Part shown: positions 50,774 through 60,113 of the stretch, piece by piece | How positions within the stretch are numbered: position 1 is the stretch's first letter | Layout of the letters: every line of letters begins with the position of its first letter | Assembly: GCA_025060135.1 (NCBI GenBank) | Contig: JANXCY010000003.1 | Location: 1 to 64,000 of the forward strand | Length of the DNA stretch: 64,000 nt | Direction: 5' to 3' | Source of the DNA: Anaerolineae bacterium | GTDB taxonomy: Bacteria > Chloroflexota > Anaerolineae > B4-G1 > DUEL01 | The notes under the pieces: generated by a model | Told to the model about the DNA's origin: nothing | The model's database searches: none | Seen by the model: the letters and a program-made list of their open reading frames with translations, nothing else | Made by a program: the position numbers and the translations under genes

Positions 50774-51694
50774 TTATCGCTGCCGGACAATCTGGAAGCG
50801 GTCAAAATCGCGGGCGATGACCGTCTCCGGGAAGATGGCTCGCGCCTCCTCCAGGACTTCCCAGTCCCGGTAACGGCGGGAGATATGGGTCAACACCAGT
50901 TGACGGACGTTGGCCTCCCGGGCCAGGAGGGCGGCCTGTCGGGCCGTTAGATGGCCGAATGCTCGCGCCATTTCCGCATCCGCTTCCAGGTACGTCGCCT
51001 CAATGACCAGGAGGTCCGCTTCCCGGACGAACTCCGCCAGGCCGTCGGTGCGGGCCGCGTCGCCCACGTGAGCCAGGCAGGCCCCCGGACGGGGAGGGCC
51101 CAGCACCTGGTCAGGATGGACCACCCGGCCATCGGGCAGAGTAACGGATTCTCCCGCCACCAGCCGGCGCCGCTCCGGCCCAGCGGGCACCCCCAGCGCC
51201 TCCGCCTTCTCCACCAGGAAGGGACGGCGGGGCCGCTCCCGGAACAGATAACCGAAACATCCTGGCCCCCGATGGGGGACCGGGAAGGCAAAAATTTCCA
51301 GGTCGTCGGCCTCCAGGACTTTCCCCGGCGTTACCTCCACAAAAATCAGTTCCATCGGCGGCTGGGTTCCCCGGAGAACTACGCCGAAGATCAGGTCCTT
51401 CACCCGTTCCAGTGTGGCCCGTCCTCCGTAAATCTCCAGGTATTCTATGGTCTCCCATCGGGCAAAAGTGGAGATCAGCCCGCCCAGACCCAGAATGTGG
51501 TCCAGGTGGCCATGGGTGAGCAGGATGCGGTTCAGCCGTTTAAACCCCAGCCCGCTCTGCAGAATCTGCCGCTGAGTGCCCTCTCCGCAATCAATCAGAA
51601 ACCGATGGTCCTGGTACAGGACCATCTGGGATGGGAGGTTACGATGGATGGAGGGGGCCGACGCGGACGTGCCCAGGAAAACCAGTTCTATCAT
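50774..51694 (-). CDS. rnz: Ribonuclease Z (tRNA 3' endonuclease)
   Basis: The 306-residue metallo-beta-lactamase protein trims tRNA 3' trailers. ELVFLGTSASAPSIHRNLPS opens the fold, FLIDCGEGTQRQILQ lies near 33, and the metal motif is LLTHGHLDHILGLGG near 60. FPVPHRGPGCFGYLF (~137) holds the next His, LAHVGDAARTD (~210) the bridging Asp, and LVLTHISRRY (~270) the last His. The insert matches the short bacterial RNase Z. It lies 78 bp downstream of rtcA on the same strand. Confidence 0.93.
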   Translation of the reverse strand: MIELVFLGTSASAPSIHRNLPSQMVLYQDHRFLIDCGEGTQRQILQSGLGFKRLNRILLTHGHLDHILGLGGLISTFARWETIEYLEIYGGRATLERVKDLIFGVVLRGTQPPMELIFVEVTPGKVLEADDLEIFAFPVPHRGPGCFGYLFRERPRRPFLVEKAEALGVPAGPERRRLVAGESVTLPDGRVVHPDQVLGPPRPGACLAHVGDAARTDGLAEFVREADLLVIEATYLEADAEMARAFGHLTARQAALLAREANVRQLVLTHISRRYRDWEVLEEARAIFPETVIARDFDRFQIVRQR

Positions 51695-51772
51695 AGCGCA
51701 GGTCGCAGGTTACAGGTTGGCAGACGCTGGGCACAAGATACAGGCTGCAGGGAGCCGGTATCTCGCGCCCGA

Positions 51773-52840
51773 CTATAAAGGGACAACGGTTACGATTCCG
51801 GGGCGGCCCACCTCACCTTCCACCGTTGCCTGGATGGGGAGAAAGGCCCGAAGGACCACCAGGTTGGTCAGCAGGTGGCTCGTGATGGCCGAGGTAACGA
51901 GGCGGGAGGGACCCTCGGCCAGTGCCATCGGGAGCAGGAGTTGGTCAGCCAGGTGAGGGTCCACCGGAGCCCCGGTCTCGTGATGGGCCAGCAGGTCCTG
52001 GCAGGCCGCATCAGCGACCTGGTCGGCGGGGAGGCCCTTGCGTCCGTAGGCGGTGAAGCCTGCCCGCGCGTGCTCGTACTGGACGAACAGGAAGATCCCC
52101 GCCCCCGGCCCAGCCCCTCGCACCACCAGCGGTTGCAGGTCGGCCTTAAGGCCGGCGCGGGCCAGCCGATTGCGGGCCCGGTCTACCATCCGCTGGGGGA
52201 TGTGAGCCGGGAGGTTGGAAACCACTCCTCGTCCCCATACCCGCTGGACGGCTCCCCGGTCGGTCAGGGTGATGGGCCTCAGTGCGCCGGAACGCCCCCG
52301 AATCCGCACCCGGATTTCGCCACCGCCCGCCGGGTAGAAGCCCCAGGAGACTAGGTCGATCTCTGCGTCCAGGCCCATTCGGGCCGCCATGGGCAGAAAG
52401 ACCTCCCGGAGGTAGTCCACCGACGGGGCCCAGGGGACATGGGTGCCGCCCCGCAGGGTCAGGTGGCTCTCGCCCGGAGCCAGCGCCAGGGGCAGGAAAA
52501 GGGTCTGAAAGACCAGGCCGACGGCGCCTGCGCTCCCGCGCCCGGCGACTTCCGCAACGTCAAACGTGTATGCTCCCGGCACAGGCGGGCTTTGAGGAGC
52601 AAACCGCAGGGTCTGGCTCCCCAGTTCGGCCCCCTCCACCCGGGCCTGACAGATGGCCGCCGCTGCTTGGACCGCTGTCAGGTGCTGCGGTTGCAGGCCC
52701 GGGTTGGGCCGCCCGGCGCGAATGCGGACGATTTCCACCGGCTGGCCGGTGAGCACAGAGAGGGTGAGAGAGGTCCGCAGGACCTGCCCCCCACCTTCTC
52801 CGACGGAGCCGTCTATGGAAACCCCAGGTGTTTTCTGCAC
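51773..52840 (-). CDS. rtcA: RNA 3'-terminal phosphate cyclase
   Basis: The 355-residue protein turns an RNA 3'-phosphate into a 2',3'-cyclic phosphate with ATP. ISIDGSVGEGGGQVLRTSL-like sequence opens the fold (DGSVGEGGGQVLRTSL, near 9), PGLQPQHLTAVQAAAAI lies near 50, RGGTHVPWAPSVDYL near 130, and the catalytic His in DPHLADQLLLPMALAEG near 310. Length fits RtcA. No rtcB or rtcR is nearby, so this is rtcA outside the E. coli-type operon. It starts 10 bp after the radical SAM-linked gene ends. Confidence 0.94.
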   Translation of the reverse strand: MQKTPGVSIDGSVGEGGGQVLRTSLTLSVLTGQPVEIVRIRAGRPNPGLQPQHLTAVQAAAAICQARVEGAELGSQTLRFAPQSPPVPGAYTFDVAEVAGRGSAGAVGLVFQTLFLPLALAPGESHLTLRGGTHVPWAPSVDYLREVFLPMAARMGLDAEIDLVSWGFYPAGGGEIRVRIRGRSGALRPITLTDRGAVQRVWGRGVVSNLPAHIPQRMVDRARNRLARAGLKADLQPLVVRGAGPGAGIFLFVQYEHARAGFTAYGRKGLPADQVADAACQDLLAHHETGAPVDPHLADQLLLPMALAEGPSRLVTSAITSHLLTNLVVLRAFLPIQATVEGEVGRPGIVTVVPL

Positions 52841-52849
52841 GGCGTATGA

Positions 52850-53554
52850 TTATACCTGATGCTCCCCAGGAGGCAAGCACTTCCTCCGGCGTTCCCCCTG
52901 CCATCCCTCGGCGAAGAGAATGCCCCGTCGGGTAACCTGGAAAAAGCCGTTGGCCAGGCCTAACGCGTCCAGCACTTCCTCGGGGCGGCCCGTCGCGCCC
53001 TCTTGGGCGGAAAGGCGCATCGCCAGCGCCGTATGGCCGAAGCCCGCTTCTTCCAGGCGAAGGGAAAGCACCAGCGGACGCAGGTCGTAGGGACGGCCCC
53101 GGCGTTCCCGGGGGAGGGTGGTCGCGGCCAGCAGTTCCTCTATACGGCGCCGAATCTCATCTTCGGGAACGGTCGTCTCCACGACCACCCCATAGTCGGC
53201 AGCCCGGACCTGCGCGGGCAATGAAGGGGCATCCACCGGGACCTCTTCGGCCTGCCGCACTGTCAGCCCGTTGGGCAGGGTGGCCTTGAGCACCCGGATA
53301 GCCTCCCCGGGCGCCAGCGGTGCCTCCAGCCAGACGTCCAGCCATTCCGCCTCGGAAGCAAACCCCAGCGGCAACGGCAGTGCGATCTGCAGGCGGGGTC
53401 GGGGAGTGAAGCCGCCGGTGTAGGCCAGGGGGAAGCCAACCCGACGCATTGCGCGTTCCCACACCCGGACCTGCTCCAGATGGGAGATGTAGCGCATGGG
53501 GCCGCTTACCGCGTAGACAAGGCGCAAACGAAAGAGGGGGCGCGCGGAGATCAC
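52850..53554 (-). CDS. TIGR03936/DUF2344 radical SAM-linked protein
   Basis: The 234-residue protein opens VISARPLFRLRLVYAVSGPM, with RYISHLEQVRVWERAMRRVG near 20 and FTPRPRLQIALPLPLGFASE near 48, hallmarks of the DUF2344 domain. This domain usually stands next to or is fused to a radical SAM protein; that partner is absent here. The GTG at 53554 overlaps the NurA stop by four bases (GTGA) and follows GGAGGGG, so I chose it over the upstream in-frame ATG. Function unknown; a role in RNA or tRNA modification is a guess from its usual partner and its neighbours. Confidence 0.85.
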   Translation of the reverse strand: MISARPLFRLRLVYAVSGPMRYISHLEQVRVWERAMRRVGFPLAYTGGFTPRPRLQIALPLPLGFASEAEWLDVWLEAPLAPGEAIRVLKATLPNGLTVRQAEEVPVDAPSLPAQVRAADYGVVVETTVPEDEIRRRIEELLAATTLPRERRGRPYDLRPLVLSLRLEEAGFGHTALAMRLSAQEGATGRPEEVLDALGLANGFFQVTRRGILFAEGWQGERRRKCLPPGEHQV

Positions 53555-54705
53555 CCCTTGCCCCTCCGGGTTAAACCCTTGTAGTATAATTTGGGTGAAG
53601 GTGTGGGAATAACCCCGGCGGCCATCAGGGCCGTTTCCACCATCTCTTCCAGTTTTTCCCGCTCTGCGTTGCTGATGTAGGCCAGTTCGTCGGCGCGGGC
53701 CAGCACGTAGGGAAATCCCCCCAGGATACGGCACTGGGCGACGATCCCGGCATGGGTCAGCGAGAGCCGTTCAGGGTCTTCGGCCACCCAGCGCGGCACC
53801 TCCACCCGGGCGATCACCGGCTCTTGGCCCTCCGGAGCGACGTTGAGGTAGAAGAACCTGACTCCGTGCCCTGTCGGCTCGTAGTAGTGGCGATTCACAG
53901 GGCTGGGAGAGCCAAAGAGGGCCGACCGGGCTCCGGCGGGCAGCGCGGCAAAAAGAGTGCGGTCGGGGACCCGTCCCAGGGGATTGGGCACCTCCCGTGC
54001 CCGTCCTACGTCCCCACCAAGCCGGACCAGATGCAGGAGTTTTCCCACCTCGGCGTGGCGCGGCCGGCTGATGAACGCGGCCAGGGCCGCTCCTTTTCGC
54101 CGAATCCGCTCCATCTGGAGCAGATAGGGGTCTGCTTTCTCCTTCCGCCCCGCCACCGGAAGGTCTTCCAGTATCCAGAGAACGAGGGTACCGTCCACCA
54201 GAGCCAGCGTCGGGCCAGGGGGCTCTGCCTCCACCCGGTCGGCCAGGTGGGCGATTTCCGCGCAGTCCCGCCGCAGGTCCAGCAGATGGCCGGAGACCAG
54301 CAACTCCCCTTCGTAGAGGTCCTCCTCCCGGAAACCCAATGTGGGGATACTGCGGGCTTCCGGGGTCGCTCCGCTCCCATGCCGGAAGACCAGGCTGCCA
54401 ATGTTGATGAGATAATAGAGGGCGACTCCGTGGCGGTCAGGGCCGATAGCGCTCCCGTCGGCACCGATGACGGTGAAGGCGTCGGGGATAGAGGGACAGG
54501 GCACTACCGTATTCAGCGGCTCAGCGGTGGGGACAGCAGCCCCGACTTCCGCTGCGACGTCCTCCAGAGCCGCTCCCGCGTCGGCGAACTCCTCCAGCCA
54601 CTGGCGGGCTTCCACCACCCGGCTTACAAATTCCCGCTCCTGTCGGGCTAGGGAACGGCCCATCTCACTCACGTTTCCGATCAGACGGGTCAGGTCTAAT
54701 GCCAT
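53551..54705 (-). CDS. nurA: NurA domain nuclease
   Basis: The 384-residue protein has the NurA 5'-3' nuclease fold. VIGADGSAIGPDRHGVALYY near 88 carries the metal-binding Asp, and TLALVDGTLVLWILEDLPV near 175 carries a second Asp. HYYEPTGHGVRFFYLN lies near 280, and the tail LSLTHAGIVAQCRILGGFPY near 330 fits the family. NurA normally partners the HerA ATPase in DNA end resection, but herA is not in the window. The ATG at 54705 follows GGGAGCGCG; the frame runs 10 codons further up. It overlaps the next gene by 4 bp. Confidence 0.87.
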   Translation of the reverse strand: MALDLTRLIGNVSEMGRSLARQEREFVSRVVEARQWLEEFADAGAALEDVAAEVGAAVPTAEPLNTVVPCPSIPDAFTVIGADGSAIGPDRHGVALYYLINIGSLVFRHGSGATPEARSIPTLGFREEDLYEGELLVSGHLLDLRRDCAEIAHLADRVEAEPPGPTLALVDGTLVLWILEDLPVAGRKEKADPYLLQMERIRRKGAALAAFISRPRHAEVGKLLHLVRLGGDVGRAREVPNPLGRVPDRTLFAALPAGARSALFGSPSPVNRHYYEPTGHGVRFFYLNVAPEGQEPVIARVEVPRWVAEDPERLSLTHAGIVAQCRILGGFPYVLARADELAYISNAEREKLEEMVETALMAAGVIPTPSPKLYYKGLTRRGKG

Positions 54706-55103
54706 CGCGCTCCCGAAAATGCCCGCGCCTTTCACCCTCGGTATCGGTAATGGGCGCTATTCCGAGAAAGTTTATGGGCGCTTATTTTTCAGCCACCCCC
54801 TTGAAAAGGCCAAACTGCAGAGGAGGGGGATGGGGGGGATGAGGGCCGCTGCAATCTCTCTATCGCGTATAGAAAATCAAGTTACACATGGCGTGATGGT
54901 TCTGGGGGAATTCCCGTGGGTGGGGAGCAAGTTGCCCACAAAAAGGTCGCGGCTGCGCAGCGTAGGTTTGAGCCTGCGCCGCGCAAGATAAATCCTCGGC
55001 TCCGTTGCCCCCAAGCCACCAGCAAACCACGGAAACTCCCAGAGAGCCAAGTTTAATTATACTTCCCTCTGAGAAAGGGGCAATTCCCATCTCCTTGCCC
55101 TCC

Positions 55104-55157: not shown

Positions 55158-55186
55158 TTGCCCCTCCACCCATTCGCGTCTATAAT
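55158..55186 (+). promoter_or_regulatory. Promoter of the amidohydrolase-CYTH gene
   Basis: TTGCCC (55158-55163), 17 bp, then a perfect TATAAT (55181-55186). Start near 55193, with GGGAGGGAGGA between it and ATG 55207, so the leader is only ~14 nt. Confidence 0.68.
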
Positions 55187-55206: not shown

Positions 55207-57213
55207 ATGAACACAGCAGACCTGATGCTTACCGGTGGTGTGGTCGTTACGATGAACGATCGCTACGACATCTGGGAGCCAGGAGCAGTGGTGGTTCAGG
55301 ACGGCGCCATCGTCGCGGTGGGGCCAGCGGAGGCAGTCGGGCAGGAATGGACGGCGCGCGAGACGGTAGACTGCTCCGGCCACGCCGTCATCCCCGGCCT
55401 CATCAATGCCCACACCCATGCCCCGATGACCCTGGTGCGCGGCCTGGCCGACGACCTGCGCCTGGACGTCTGGCTCATCGGCTATATGATGCCGGTGGAA
55501 CGGGAATTCGTGCGCCCGGATTTCTGCTGGCTGGGCACCCAACTGGCCTGCGCAGAGATGATCCGCTCTGGCGTTACCTGCTTTGGTGACATGTACTACT
55601 ACGAAGAGGCCGTCGCCGACGCCGCCGTCCAGGTCGGCATGCGGGCCGTCTGCGCGCAATCCATCCTCAAATTTCCCACTCCGGATGCGGTCAGTTACGA
55701 CGAGGGACTGCGCTTGGCAGAGAGTTTCATCGGGCGCTGGCGGGGCCACCACCTCATCGTCCCGGCGCTGGGCCCCCACGCCGCCTACACTGCCACTCCC
55801 GATATGCTCCAGGAATGTGCCCGCCTGGCCCGGGCCTACGACGTCCCCATCCACATCCACGTCGCTGAGACTGCGCTGGAGGTCCAGGAGCACCGGGCCG
55901 AGTACGGCATGCCCATCGTCCCCTGGATCAAGAAGCAGGGCCTGTTAGAGGCCAGGGTTACCGCCGTCCACTGCGTTCACCTGGACGAGGGCGAGATGCA
56001 CACCCTGCTCCACCACGGGACGGGCGTGGCCCACAACCCTACCAGTAACCTGAAACTGGCCAGCGGCATCGCGCCGGTGGCTCGAATGCTGGCGCTGGGA
56101 TTGAACGTGGGCATCGGCACCGATGGCCCCGCCAGCAACAATGACCTGGACATGTTTGAGGAACTGCGGCTGGCAGCAATTCTGGCCAAAGGCATCACCG
56201 CCGACCCGACTGCCCTGCCCGCCCGTCAGGCCCTGGCTATGGCGACGATTATGGGTGCCCGAGCCCTGCACATCGCCCATCTGACCGGCTCGCTAGAAGT
56301 CGGCAAGCGGGCCGACATCGCTGTTGTTGACCTGGAGGACTTGCACCTAACCCCCCGTTTCCACCGGGACCCGGAGAGCATCTACTCTCTGCTGGTCTAC
56401 GCAGCCAAGGGCCACGATGTACGCCATGTCCTCTGTGATGGCCGGTGGTTGATGCGGGATCGGGCCCTCCTGACGGTGAATCCCGAGGAACTGCGTGCCC
56501 AGGCCCTGGAGATCGCTCGCAAGATTGACCGGTTCCTCAGCGTCCGGGAGGAGAGCGTCCTCAGCAAACTGGTTGCCATCGGCGGTGTGGCCCGGGAGAA
56601 GACCTTTGAGGTTCAGGTCAAAGTTCATCTGACCGACGACGCGGGGGTCTTGGCGATACTGACGGGAGGAGCGGTTCCCATTGTCAAACAGTCCCGGCGG
56701 CGGCAGTACGACACCTACTTCCTCTTTGACGACCCCGACCATAGCCGTCTGCGCTACCGGGAAGAGGAGATCCTGGGCGATGAGGACCAGGTTACCGACG
56801 TTCGCTATCGGCTTACGCTGACAGGCGACACGAAGGAACGGGAGTTCCCTCACTCCGTCCTCCTGTCCCGCTCCCGGTTTGACGCGCCCGCGACCCGCAG
56901 TCTGCGCTTCTACCGGGAGTACTTTAAACCAGCAGCGGAGTGGGAAGTCCATAAAGAGCGGCGACGGTACCATATCCGTTATGGCGGGACCGACTTTGCG
57001 GTCAACCTGGACCGGGTGGTCCAACCGGCGTTACCCGGCTACTTCCTGGAACTGAAGAGCCGGACATGGTCGGCCCAGGACGCGGAGCGGAAGGCCGTCC
57101 TTATCGGCGAACTGCTGGAACTCTTCGGCGTCCGGGAACAGGAACTGGTGCGGCGGGAGTACCTGGACCTGGCGCGGGAATATCAACGTCCGGAAGAAGC
57201 CGCGACTCCGTGA
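55207..57213 (+). CDS. Amidohydrolase (MTA/SAH deaminase-like) fused to a CYTH domain
   Basis: The 668-residue protein has two parts. Residues ~1-445 are an amidohydrolase of the TRZ/ATZ/MtaD group: metal motif INAHTHAPMTLVRGLADDL near 70, HIHVAETALEV near 215, TAVHCVHLDEGEM near 255 and GIGTDGPASNNDLDMFEEL near 300. It could deaminate S-adenosylhomocysteine or methylthioadenosine. Residues ~465-650 resemble a CYTH (triphosphate-tunnel) domain: FEVQVKVHLTDDAGVL, YDTYFLFDDPDHSRLRYREE and YFLELKSRTWSAQDAERKAV. The ExExK entry motif reads E-V-Q-V-K, so activity is uncertain. The fusion would link nucleoside and phosphate chemistry in one chain. Confidence 0.8.
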   Translation: MNTADLMLTGGVVVTMNDRYDIWEPGAVVVQDGAIVAVGPAEAVGQEWTARETVDCSGHAVIPGLINAHTHAPMTLVRGLADDLRLDVWLIGYMMPVEREFVRPDFCWLGTQLACAEMIRSGVTCFGDMYYYEEAVADAAVQVGMRAVCAQSILKFPTPDAVSYDEGLRLAESFIGRWRGHHLIVPALGPHAAYTATPDMLQECARLARAYDVPIHIHVAETALEVQEHRAEYGMPIVPWIKKQGLLEARVTAVHCVHLDEGEMHTLLHHGTGVAHNPTSNLKLASGIAPVARMLALGLNVGIGTDGPASNNDLDMFEELRLAAILAKGITADPTALPARQALAMATIMGARALHIAHLTGSLEVGKRADIAVVDLEDLHLTPRFHRDPESIYSLLVYAAKGHDVRHVLCDGRWLMRDRALLTVNPEELRAQALEIARKIDRFLSVREESVLSKLVAIGGVAREKTFEVQVKVHLTDDAGVLAILTGGAVPIVKQSRRRQYDTYFLFDDPDHSRLRYREEEILGDEDQVTDVRYRLTLTGDTKEREFPHSVLLSRSRFDAPATRSLRFYREYFKPAAEWEVHKERRRYHIRYGGTDFAVNLDRVVQPALPGYFLELKSRTWSAQDAERKAVLIGELLELFGVREQELVRREYLDLAREYQRPEEAATP

Positions 57214-57260: not shown

Positions 57261-58067
57261 CTATCGGTCCGGCACCGGCCGGATCCAGGTTCCAGGTAAC
57301 GCTGAGGGGTCGGAGAGGGCCCGATAAAGGGCCCCCTTCTCCTGGCCAGAGAAGATGCAGGCCATGGTAGCAGGGTATGCTGCCACCAGCGCGGCCATTC
57401 GTTCCACCTTATCCGCCATTCCCCCTGTTACGTCCATGCCGTGAGCGCCCCGGAGAACTGGCCGCAGAGCCGGAAGGTCCGCCGGAGTGATGGTGGGAAT
57501 CACCCGCCCCTCGATGTCCAGTACGCCTGCCACTTGGGTCGCCAGGAGAATCCGCTGCGGGGCCAGGATGGGAGCCAGATAAACAAAGAGGTCTTCGGTG
57601 GAGACAATCGTCCCGCCCCGCACATTGTCTAGGGCCACGTCGCCGTAGATGAGAGGCACCAATCCATGCGCCAGCGCTTCCCGAATCGGCCTGATCTCCA
57701 GATGGATTAGCACGCCGTCCTGGCAGCGGGCTGAGGCAGAAGGTTGCAGGCTCAACACCGGTACTCCCACTTCCAAGAAGATGTCGGCAACGATGCGGTT
57801 GAGCCGGGCAGCGGCCGCGGCCACCTCCGCGTATCCCCGCCACTCCCGAGGCGTCCGTACGCCCTGCCGGGTGCCGTAGGGCGCGGCGGCCGCATGGCCG
57901 AACGAGCCGGACCCGTGGCCGATGACCAGTTCCAGGTCCGGCCGCGTTTCCAGGGCCTCCCGGACCTCCTCTGCCAGCCGCCGGATGACCTCCGGGCGCG
58001 ACGTGTAGGGGGAGGATTTATCGGTAATCAGCGAACCACCCAGTTTCAGAAACGCTCGCTCCCTCAA
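57261..58067 (-). CDS. ipk: Isopentenyl phosphate kinase
   Basis: The protein (268 residues from the start chosen) phosphorylates isopentenyl phosphate to isopentenyl diphosphate. Hallmarks: FLKLGGSLITDKSSPYTSRP near the N-terminus, VIGHGSGSFGHAAAAPYGTR near 50 with the catalytic His, LIYGDVALDNVRGGTIVSTE near 145, and HGMDVTGGMADKVERMAALV near 210. It belongs to the amino acid kinase superfamily. The start is uncertain: I took TTG 58067 because KLGGS begins a few residues in, as in the family; a TTG at 58163 in the same frame is possible. It is the last gene of an isoprenoid cluster. Confidence 0.9.
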   Translation of the reverse strand: MRERAFLKLGGSLITDKSSPYTSRPEVIRRLAEEVREALETRPDLELVIGHGSGSFGHAAAAPYGTRQGVRTPREWRGYAEVAAAAARLNRIVADIFLEVGVPVLSLQPSASARCQDGVLIHLEIRPIREALAHGLVPLIYGDVALDNVRGGTIVSTEDLFVYLAPILAPQRILLATQVAGVLDIEGRVIPTITPADLPALRPVLRGAHGMDVTGGMADKVERMAALVAAYPATMACIFSGQEKGALYRALSDPSALPGTWIRPVPDR

Positions 58068-58220
58068 TCCCCAGCGTCCACTCCCGATCCATCCGTATAA
58101 CCGAACCGTCCCGGCAATGCGATTCCCAATCCTCCGGACAGGCTGGTGGTCTCTCTTCCCCAACCTGATCCACGCCTTCTTTTGGCATCAATTGCTTCAG
58201 GTGTCAGGTTCGTTGGTGGT

Positions 58221-59147
58221 TCATGGGCTTGCCACTTCTGTCCGCCAGACCTGGGCCGCACCCGTGGCCCGCAGTGCCTCCTCCACCGCCCGGGCCGTAG
58301 ATTTCTCCACCAGTGCGACGATGGTACCACCCCGACCGGCGCCAGAGAGTTTGGCTCCGAGGGCGCCGGCCCGCCGGGCGGTCTCCACCAGCCGGTCCAG
58401 GACCGGCGCCGAAACTCCTATTTCCCGCAGGAGTTCGTGGTTGGCGTCCATGCGCTTCCCGAGCGCGCGAATATCTCCTTGGGCCATTGCCTCCCGGGCC
58501 GCCTCCACCTCCTGAGCCACCCGGTCAAAGAGCGCCTCATAGCGGGCTGGTTCCGCCTCCCAGTGCCGCCGAACGTCTCCCACCACCACGCGGGTTGGGC
58601 TGGGGATGCCGCTATCGGCCACCAGCAAGTGCAGCGTCGTGCCCACTGGCAGGGGCTCCGGCGGTCTCCCCCGAACGAAATATATGGATTGTTCGTAGGC
58701 GATGACCGTGTTATCGATCCCGCTGGGCGTACCGTGATAGATACGCTCTATCTCGTACACCAGCGCGGAGACTGTCGGCGGGTCCAGCGAAACACCGTAC
58801 CAGGCGGCCAGTGCCCGGACAATGGCGGTGGAGACCGCCGCGCCCGACCCCAGTCCCGAGGCCACTGGAATCTCCGATTCTATCCGCAGGAGGGCATCGG
58901 GCGGAGGCCGATGGAGGTGCTTCGCCGTCAAATAGACGATGCGCGCCAGCGGGTGGTCGGCGGGAAGGGCCGAGAGCGGCGCGTCTATCCCCACCGCCGG
59001 GGCCTGGATGTGAAAGGGAGCAGGGTGGGGAGCCAGGGTGGCCGTCGCGCGTAGCCCGCTCAGAGGGATAGCGATGGCGGGCCGTCCATACACCACCGCA
59101 TGTTCCCCCAGCAGGATGACTTTGCCCGCCGCCGAGGCACGAACCAC
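58221..59147 (-). CDS. mvk: Mevalonate kinase
   Basis: The 308-residue GHMP kinase makes 5-phosphomevalonate. SAAGKVILLGEHAVVYGRPA opens the protein, IPVASGLGSGAAVSTAIVRA near 95 is the ATP-binding loop, GTPSGIDNTVIAYEQSIYF near 140 includes the catalytic Asp, and LGAKLSGAGRGGTIVALV near 270 is motif 3. I chose the GTG at 59147, 5 bp after the UbiA stop; a GTG at 59192 would overlap that gene and add 15 foreign residues. Phosphomevalonate kinase or decarboxylase is not in the window. Confidence 0.92.
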   Translation of the reverse strand: MVRASAAGKVILLGEHAVVYGRPAIAIPLSGLRATATLAPHPAPFHIQAPAVGIDAPLSALPADHPLARIVYLTAKHLHRPPPDALLRIESEIPVASGLGSGAAVSTAIVRALAAWYGVSLDPPTVSALVYEIERIYHGTPSGIDNTVIAYEQSIYFVRGRPPEPLPVGTTLHLLVADSGIPSPTRVVVGDVRRHWEAEPARYEALFDRVAQEVEAAREAMAQGDIRALGKRMDANHELLREIGVSAPVLDRLVETARRAGALGAKLSGAGRGGTIVALVEKSTARAVEEALRATGAAQVWRTEVASP

Positions 59148-59152
59148 CGTCT

Positions 59153-60025
59153 CTACCGCACGTACATGATCAGGATGACCGCCATTCCCCACAGCAATAC
59201 CCCGACCTGTAACGGTCGGTCCCGCAGAACGATTTCCTCCGGTTCGCCCCCCATTCCCTTGACATAGACCAGATACAGGTACCGGAAGATGGCATAGAGG
59301 ACAAAGGGCACCGTTAGCATCATCGTGTGGTTGGACGGAAGATTGGGTGCGGAGAAGGTATAGAGAGTGTAAGCCACCAGCGTCGCCGCGGTAACGATGA
59401 GGATGAACTGATCCAGGAGCAGGACGTTATACTCCCCCAGGCTTTCCCGATGGTGGTTGGCGTTCTCGCCCAAAAGCGTCAGTTCGTGGCGGCGCTTACT
59501 GAAACTGATGAAGAGAGCCAGCAATCCCATACAGGTGTAAATCCAGGGTGAGAATCGCTCTGCCTCTACCAACGGGATGCCCGCCGCGACCCGCAGGACA
59601 AACCCCGCCGCCACGGCCAGCGCGTCCATGATGACGACGTTTTTGAGGAGAAACGAGTAGGCTACCTGCAGAATCAGGTAGGCAGAGAGAACGCCGCCAA
59701 AAAGGGGGTCCAGCAGAAACCCTGCTGGCAGGCCGACCAGCGGGATCAGGAGAGCGCAGACCATCGCCGCGCGCGGAGAAAGCCGCCCGGACGCAATGGG
59801 CCGGTGGCGCTTGCGCGGATGCTGGCGGTCCTTCTCCGCATCCACCAGGTCGTTCACCAAGTAGACAGCCCCCGAGATCAGGCACAGGAGTACGAAACCG
59901 GCCACCGTCCGGGCCAGGTAGACCGGATGGAAGAGTTTCTGGTCAAACACCAGGGGAGCGAAAACGAAAATGTTTTTGGCCCACTGTTTGGGCCGCATAG
60001 CTGTTATCAGGGCTTTCAGGGACAT
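59153..60025 (-). CDS. UbiA prenyltransferase, decaprenyl-phosphate phosphoribosyltransferase type
   Basis: The 290-residue membrane protein has eight or nine helices. LITAMRPKQWAKNIFVFAPL opens the fold, YLVNDLVDAEKDRQHPRKRH near 66 is the first aspartate motif (NDxxDxxxD with the RPIASG tail), and FISFSKRRHELTLLGENANH near 182 is the second region. The K-N-x-F-V-F-A-P-L start fits the DPPR-synthase group, which attaches phosphoribose to a polyprenyl phosphate to make arabinose or ribose donors. The ATG at 60025 follows GGAG; an upstream in-frame start at 60064 is unlikely. It heads the mvk-ipk operon. Confidence 0.86.
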   Translation of the reverse strand: MSLKALITAMRPKQWAKNIFVFAPLVFDQKLFHPVYLARTVAGFVLLCLISGAVYLVNDLVDAEKDRQHPRKRHRPIASGRLSPRAAMVCALLIPLVGLPAGFLLDPLFGGVLSAYLILQVAYSFLLKNVVIMDALAVAAGFVLRVAAGIPLVEAERFSPWIYTCMGLLALFISFSKRRHELTLLGENANHHRESLGEYNVLLLDQFILIVTAATLVAYTLYTFSAPNLPSNHTMMLTVPFVLYAIFRYLYLVYVKGMGGEPEEIVLRDRPLQVGVLLWGMAVILIMYVR

Positions 60026-60113
60026 GCTCCGGCTCCGGCAGAATTCTGCATTCCGAGAGGCCATCCAAAGAATCGGCAGACCCGTTTCCGGGTCCTTTGC
60101 GCTTTACGTTCTC

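Follow-up and report, generated by a model that had tools for sequence, protein, structure and literature searches.

A deaminase of the MtaD/SahD group and a CYTH (triphosphate-tunnel) domain are joined in one chain encoded in the window (the whole stretch of DNA analysed, 64,000 nucleotides of contig JANXCY010000003.1 from an Anaerolineae bacterium), and the tunnel carries replacements in its catalytic motifs that are fixed. The folds are known, and what is new is the architecture together with the fixed non-canonical active site. The likeliest reading of the tunnel residues is that a phosphate ligand would be bound without the usual hydrolysis, and the best single idea about its role is that the tunnel may sense a triphosphate.

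Two domains in one chain

The features of the gene are given below with the conservation of residues among 131 distinct fusions, which were left from 164 ORFs in the fetched loci once near-copies had been removed.

55158..55186, + strand: candidate promoter-like TTGCCC-17-TATAAT, about 20 bases 5' of the start codon (consensus scan alone, 10/12 matches)
55207..57213, + strand: complete fusion gene, ATG start, 668 amino acids plus stop, uninterrupted ORF with translation
55207..56526, + strand: deaminase half, about residues 1-440, amidohydrolase superfamily, MtaD/SahD group (Pfam, PDB sequences, Foldseek)
55411..55419, + strand: metal ligands H69-x-H71 (131/131), aligned to H-x-H of 4f0r
55858..55869, + strand: metal ligand H218 and catalytic acid E221 (131/131)
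55969..55971, + strand: H255 (131/131)
56122..56124, + strand: D306, metal ligand or general base (131/131)
56527..56595, + strand: conserved linker, residues 441-463, with F443, R447, E448 and K454 in invariant alignment columns (K454 131/131)
56596..57186, + strand: CYTH (triphosphate-tunnel) domain, residues 464-660 (PF01928, AlphaFold2, Foldseek against PDB)
56608..56622, + strand: strand 1 motif E468-x-Q470-x-K472, where ExExK is canonical (131/131 for E and Q, 129/131 for K), aligned to EIELK in ygiF and MEIEAK in canonical CYTHs
56710..56718, + strand: D502-x-Y504 on strand 2 (131/131), the DxY motif described in PMC8233210
56752..56760, + strand: R516-x-R518 on strand 3, predicted phosphate-binding arginines (131/131), aligned to RxR of canonical CYTHs
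56953..56967, + strand: K583-x-R585-x-R587 on strand 6 (131/131)
57004..57012, + strand: N600-x-D602 on strand 7 (131/131)
57049..57057, + strand: strand 8 motif E615-x-K617, where ExE is canonical (E 130/131, K 129/131), aligned to ELE of canonical CYTHs
57073..57123, + strand: C-terminal helix beyond strand 8 (AlphaFold2 helix 623-639)

An earlier note on this DNA had proposed an amidohydrolase-CYTH fusion within one chain of 668 residues, and this is borne out by Pfam, AlphaFold and Foldseek. The profile-HMM search that it had suggested finds both domains, Amidohydro_1 at residues 61-414 (E 2.8e-74) and CYTH (PF01928) at residues 468-648 (30.2 bits, above the gathering score of 23.2), and the fusion is confirmed as real. 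The gene is present in one copy in the genome, where it is also the only match to PF01928. Two other amidohydrolases of the genome, 31-34% identical to the fused deaminase, are without the tunnel part.

AlphaFold2 models the whole chain (73 relatives) with a pLDDT of 91.8 and a pTM of 0.85, the linker region forming helices 426-448 and 451-459. Structure prediction of the C-terminus had been chosen beforehand as the refuting test. Residues 451-668 (84 relatives) give a CYTH tunnel with a mean pLDDT of 90.5, in which eight long strands are followed by one helix, and the best PDB matches by Foldseek are PH1819 (2een), 1yem, SaTTM (7ns9), CyaB (2fjt) and AtTTM3 (5a5y), with E from 1e-8 to 3e-6. 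Since both the fold and these matches are those of triphosphate-tunnel proteins, the outcome that would speak against the fusion, a C-terminus other than a CYTH tunnel, did not arise. The kinase-tunnel module of plant TTM1 (7z67) and Mediator subunits are also among the Foldseek matches of the tunnel model. Neither phmmer nor hmmsearch finds a relative of the tunnel part among PDB sequences, its relatives having been found by fold comparison alone. At the level of the predicted fold, the C-terminal half is a true CYTH tunnel domain, as judged from both the score above the PF01928 gathering score and the eight strands.

The deaminase half matches 4f0r, 3lnp, 4dzh and 4dyk among PDB sequences (E 1e-101 to 1e-89) and 3lnp, 4f0s and 4dyk by Foldseek (E about 1e-49, rmsd 1.3-1.7 A, 41-42% identity). 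It shares its fold over the full length with MtaD/SahD deaminases, being 41-42% identical to those of Chromobacterium violaceum (4f0r/4f0s) and Pseudomonas aeruginosa (4dyk/4gbd) and 33% identical to TM0936 (1p1m), with an rmsd of 1.4-2.5 A across these deaminases. All of their metal and catalytic residues are conserved in the fusion, and the HxH, H, E, H, D set of the MtaD/SahD group in the amidohydrolase superfamily (H69, H71, H218, E221, H255, D306) is found in 131/131. In contrast to the fusion, the chains of these deaminases stop where its tunnel domain starts. The earlier designation of this half as MtaD-type stands at the family level but not as a named equivalog, since no NCBIfam equivalog cut-off is reached: PRK09045 is the best with 477 of 540 bits, and PRK07228 (5'-deoxyadenosine deaminase) and PRK15493 (MTA/SAH deaminase) score 347 of 522 and 291 of 779 bits, respectively.

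Distribution and descent of the fusion

Among genomes sampled within Chloroflexota, 243 of the 396 genomes of the class (151/233 among better assemblies) carry the tunnel part, as do 89 of 400 genomes drawn from the phylum, 39 of the 89 being outside the class. The records found in a broader contig scan (80 nearest of 141 matches) are nearly all titled as Chloroflexota groups. Both halves are present in 108 ORFs (113 loci), three tunnel-only ORFs run into a contig end, and all complete ORFs checked carry both halves. Loci from other Chloroflexota classes are fused in 20 of 20 cases, and the fusion recurs in several single-contig genomes. A sequencing, assembly or frame artefact or a chance ORF is ruled out by this recurrence (164 ORFs, single-contig genomes), by selection and by conservation. 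One record (L071), titled Pleurocapsa minor (a cyanobacterium), carries a fusion and neighbours of the Chloroflexota type, and its title or bin is probably wrong.

In a tree of the deaminase halves, the fused ones form one group of single origin (support 100/99), and their nearest unfused relatives are about 45% identical. D87, V88 and Y93 are invariant in the fused deaminases, whereas they are rare in unfused relatives. An unfused deaminase, L173 (G028), which is 45% identical and shares D87, V88, Y93, E133, H181 and P214 with the fused group, is probably the nearest unfused sister. A search with the deaminase half was also made in 20 members of the class whose genomes gave no tunnel match, and it revealed no complete unfused copy of the close deaminase. 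Two of these genomes contain close copies (65-67%) that are both truncated at the end of a contig, and the rest have more distant relatives only.

Both halves are under strong purifying selection, dN/dS against near relatives being 0.07-0.12 in the deaminase and 0.05-0.10 in the tunnel. The pairwise identities of the two halves are correlated (0.80 over 131 sequences). Together with the distribution and the tree, these values indicate that the fusion is old and has been passed on mostly as one unit.

Replaced residues in the tunnel

As no usable alignment came from comparing the tunnel profile with ygiF as a single sequence, the mapping of residues rests on a MAFFT alignment with seven canonical CYTHs of Chloroflexota and E. 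coli ygiF, together with the strand order in the model. The two agree on where the motifs lie, namely strand 1 for the first motif, strand 2 for DxY, strand 3 for RxR and strand 8 for ExK. In the common alignment, canonical CYTHs from genomes of the same order read MEIEAK ... ELE (ExExK and ExE), and so does ygiF. Both of these signatures of catalytic triphosphate tunnel metalloenzymes are absent from the fusion, which has E-x-Q-x-K for the former (Q in 131/131) and E-x-K on strand 8 for the latter (K in 129/131). E468, Q470, D502, Y504, R516, R518, K583, R585, R587, N600 and D602 are invariant in all 131 fusions, K472 and K617 are kept in 129 each and E615 in 130. The consensus of the last strand is E-x-K-(S/A/C)-R-T-W-S, in which R-T-W-S after K617 is almost invariant. 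Signatures of other CYTH classes are not matched either. Class IV adenylyl cyclases (CyaB) are defined by HFxxxxExExK, ExA on strand 8 and a small residue replacing the first Arg of RxR (PMC8233210), whereas the fusion has no HF before E468, K617 instead of A, and R516 in 131/131. At the W/YxRxR of thiamine triphosphatase on strand 3, it has R514-x-R516-x-R518, residue 514 being R in 121/131 and W or Y in none.

The earlier note was right in reading D502-T-Y504, L-R516-Y-R518-E and E615-L-K617 as persisting motifs, and the entry motif E468-V-Q470-V-K472 is present as it had been given. Its description of this entry motif as degenerate does not hold, since hardly any of the 131 fusions departs from ExQxK and ExK-RTWS; the changed residues are thus selected, not decaying, and the motif changes are, as judged from the alignment, fixed replacements. 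Replacement of the hallmark residues of CYTH catalysis might also be expected of a neutral relic, in which the CYTH part is functionless and decaying. Such decay is hardly credible, because the same replacements are found in nearly all copies across many families, the dN/dS of the CYTH half is as low as 0.05-0.10, and no complete ORF in the fused clade is without the CYTH part. As far as sequence allows, a decaying relic is rejected on conservation and selection.

In both ygiF and AtTTM3, a single glutamate (E160/E169) bridges metal 1, the role of which is to position or bind the substrate. Metal 2, held in ygiF by E4, E6 and E162, activates the attacking water; mutation of E6 impairs ygiF, and mutation of E4 in AtTTM3 strongly reduces PPPi hydrolysis (PMC4641920). 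Triphosphatases require the second Glu of ExE for metal 2, whereas adenylyl cyclases have an alanine at this position (PMC8233210). By the alignment, the glutamate of metal site 1 (substrate binding) in the fusion would be E615, which is kept as are the basic tunnel residues, while at metal site 2 (catalysis) E468 would be kept and the other two glutamates replaced by Q470 and K617. The fusion thereby resembles SaTTM, AtTTM3 and ygiF in the eight-stranded tunnel, the C-terminal helix, DxY, RxR and the Glu of metal site 1, but differs near-invariantly in having ExQxK for ExExK and ExK for ExE.

There are known tunnels with comparable changes. Yeast Vtc4p, a polyphosphate polymerase, also keeps site 1 and is without site 2, with basic residues at the acidic patch (PMC4641920), although it has no sequence match to the fusion and has other partner domains. 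Plant TTM1 and TTM2 (7z67) are likewise enzymes fused to a motif-altered tunnel, although their partner is a kinase instead of a deaminase and they belong to another lineage; they are without ExExK and ExE and yet are reported to be active on pyrophosphate (PMC8233210). Thus, loss of two metal-2 glutamates is no proof of losing all activity. The tunnel might still be an enzyme that does not need metal 2 in the usual form (a pyrophosphatase, a polyphosphate polymerase-like enzyme or an unknown transfer), and the fusion would then couple two nucleotide or cofactor steps. The enzyme-like conservation of nearly all polar tunnel residues, including R516/R518 and D502/Y504, would fit with this, as would the production of polyphosphate by Vtc4p with site 1 only (PMC4641920); K617 resembles the basic residues at the acidic patch of Vtc4p. 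Nevertheless, continued catalysis seems rather unlikely, as two of the three metal-2 ligands are gone, one of them charge-reversed, at a site where single mutations impair known triphosphatases (PMC4641920), and no constant neighbour points to a second substrate.

Deaminases of the MtaD/SahD group form oligomers. The tunnel might be a structural module without a physiological ligand, on which the oligomeric state of the deaminase or its thermal stability depends, as could be supposed from the strongly conserved linker and from the existence of tunnel folds without an enzymatic role, such as the Mediator subunits in the Foldseek list. However, conservation peaks at the charged tunnel motifs, and a mere scaffold could do without E-x-Q-x-K, RxR, KxRxR and ExK, all of them kept throughout the phylum; a purely structural role is unlikely.

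Gene neighbourhoods, substrate and possible role

In the window, the - strand carries genes for tRNase Z-like, RtcA (RNA 3'-phosphate cyclase), DUF2344 and NurA-domain proteins upstream of the fusion (50774-54735), and, downstream of it (57261-60064), three consecutive genes for an AA_kinase-family protein, a GHMP kinase and a prenyltransferase of the UbiA type. These adjacent genes are unrelated to the fusion. The AA_kinase-family protein gives the impression, from its sequence, of an isopentenyl-phosphate kinase and the GHMP kinase that of a mevalonate kinase, and together the three resemble a portion of a mevalonate pathway of the archaeal type. As the neighbours on both sides are on the other strand, the fusion gene appears to be transcribed alone. 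Neither a plasmid search nor PADLOC gave a match.

Elsewhere, pyrimidine-nucleoside phosphorylase adjoins the fusion in 13 loci, 11 divergent and 2 on the same strand (L046, L047, L049-L051, L057, L063, L068, L074, L082, L107, L109, L111). Three further neighbours are seen in two loci each: a DeoC-family aldolase directly downstream, an MTA phosphorylase at a distance of about 1 kb and, upstream, a member of the adenosine-specific kinase family. In 14 of the 20 loci from outside the Anaerolineae, the fusion is followed immediately by coaE, the dephospho-CoA kinase gene, in the same orientation (L145-L148, L150, L152-L158, L161, L163), often within tens of bases and in several overlapping or within about 10 bases. 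This arrangement would suit a tunnel that binds another polyanion (CoA, dephospho-CoA or an RNA 5' end) and acts outside adenosine salvage. Such a role is quite improbable, since coaE was not found beside the fusion in the Anaerolineae loci, in any of the 80 GTDB loci (nearest 80 of 141) or in the window, and gene order is weak evidence. Neighbourhoods vary between lineages with no constant partner, and gene context in some loci suggests nucleoside and cofactor metabolism.

The genome also encodes MTA phosphorylase (TIGR01694, 307 bits against a cut-off of 275) and a classical adenosine deaminase (PF00962), and consequently neither MTA nor SAH is established as the substrate of the fused deaminase. 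MTA salvage as its sole role is weakened by the former protein and a plain adenosine deaminase role by the latter. SAH hydrolase (AdoHcyase, PF05221) was not found in the source assembly (94.9% complete) and is present in 17 of 21 genomes searched. The remaining candidate substrates are 5'-deoxyadenosine from radical SAM enzymes, SAH and another modified adenosine. Salvage of 5'-deoxyadenosine with a deaminase is parallel to MTA salvage (reviewed in PMC6302742).

The explanation that we prefer, with a probability a little short of even, is that a non-hydrolysing, Mg-phosphate-binding tunnel regulates a metal-dependent deaminase of the adenosine type; here we infer the ligand binding, the lack of hydrolysis, the regulation and the substrate. 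The deaminase half would be metal-dependent and act on adenosine-type nucleosides, most likely 5'-modified ones (5'-deoxyadenosine, MTA or SAH). The tunnel would still bind a Mg-phosphate ligand (a triphosphate, a nucleotide or polyphosphate) through its basic residues and metal site 1 (E615), and this ligand would not be hydrolysed, because the catalytic metal site 2 is rebuilt (E to Q470 and E to K617). Through the conserved linker, binding may then affect how active or stable the deaminase is, or how it assembles. The tunnel fold, the near-invariant motifs, dN/dS, the single origin, the linker, the intact deaminase ligands, the missing unfused copies and some neighbours count for this explanation, and the MTA phosphorylase and adenosine deaminase in the genome, the varying neighbourhoods, the unrelated neighbours in the window and the pyrophosphate activity of TTM1/2 count against it.

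CYTH domains have been listed in fusions with CHAD, HD hydrolase, exopolyphosphatase and nucleotide kinase domains (PMC8233210); the present protein likewise has a second domain, but a deaminase or amidohydrolase partner is not on this list. Open-access full texts, to which the search was directed, give no description of CYTH paired with an amidohydrolase or SAH deaminase, and a search of them for 'CYTH domain' with 'deaminase' returns only unrelated work, a proteomics study and a second-messenger study. The pairing thus seems to be undescribed so far.

Routine annotation labels CYTH proteins adenylyl cyclases or triphosphatases. In the present case, a large coherent subfamily has its catalytic metal site replaced, with the replacement kept by selection, and is joined to a partner enzyme of known chemistry, the reaction of which makes it easy to read out what the tunnel may sense. 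Confirmation would add sensing to the roles of the tunnel fold and would call for caution against annotating such domains as triphosphatases. A broader and more doubtful possibility is that the fusion is a phylum-wide pseudo-triphosphatase, a non-hydrolysing sensor of phosphate compounds in allosteric control of a nucleoside deaminase that handles by-products of S-adenosylmethionine. If true, it would put the tunnel fold to a new use in regulation and would newly link adenosine salvage to the phosphate or energy state.
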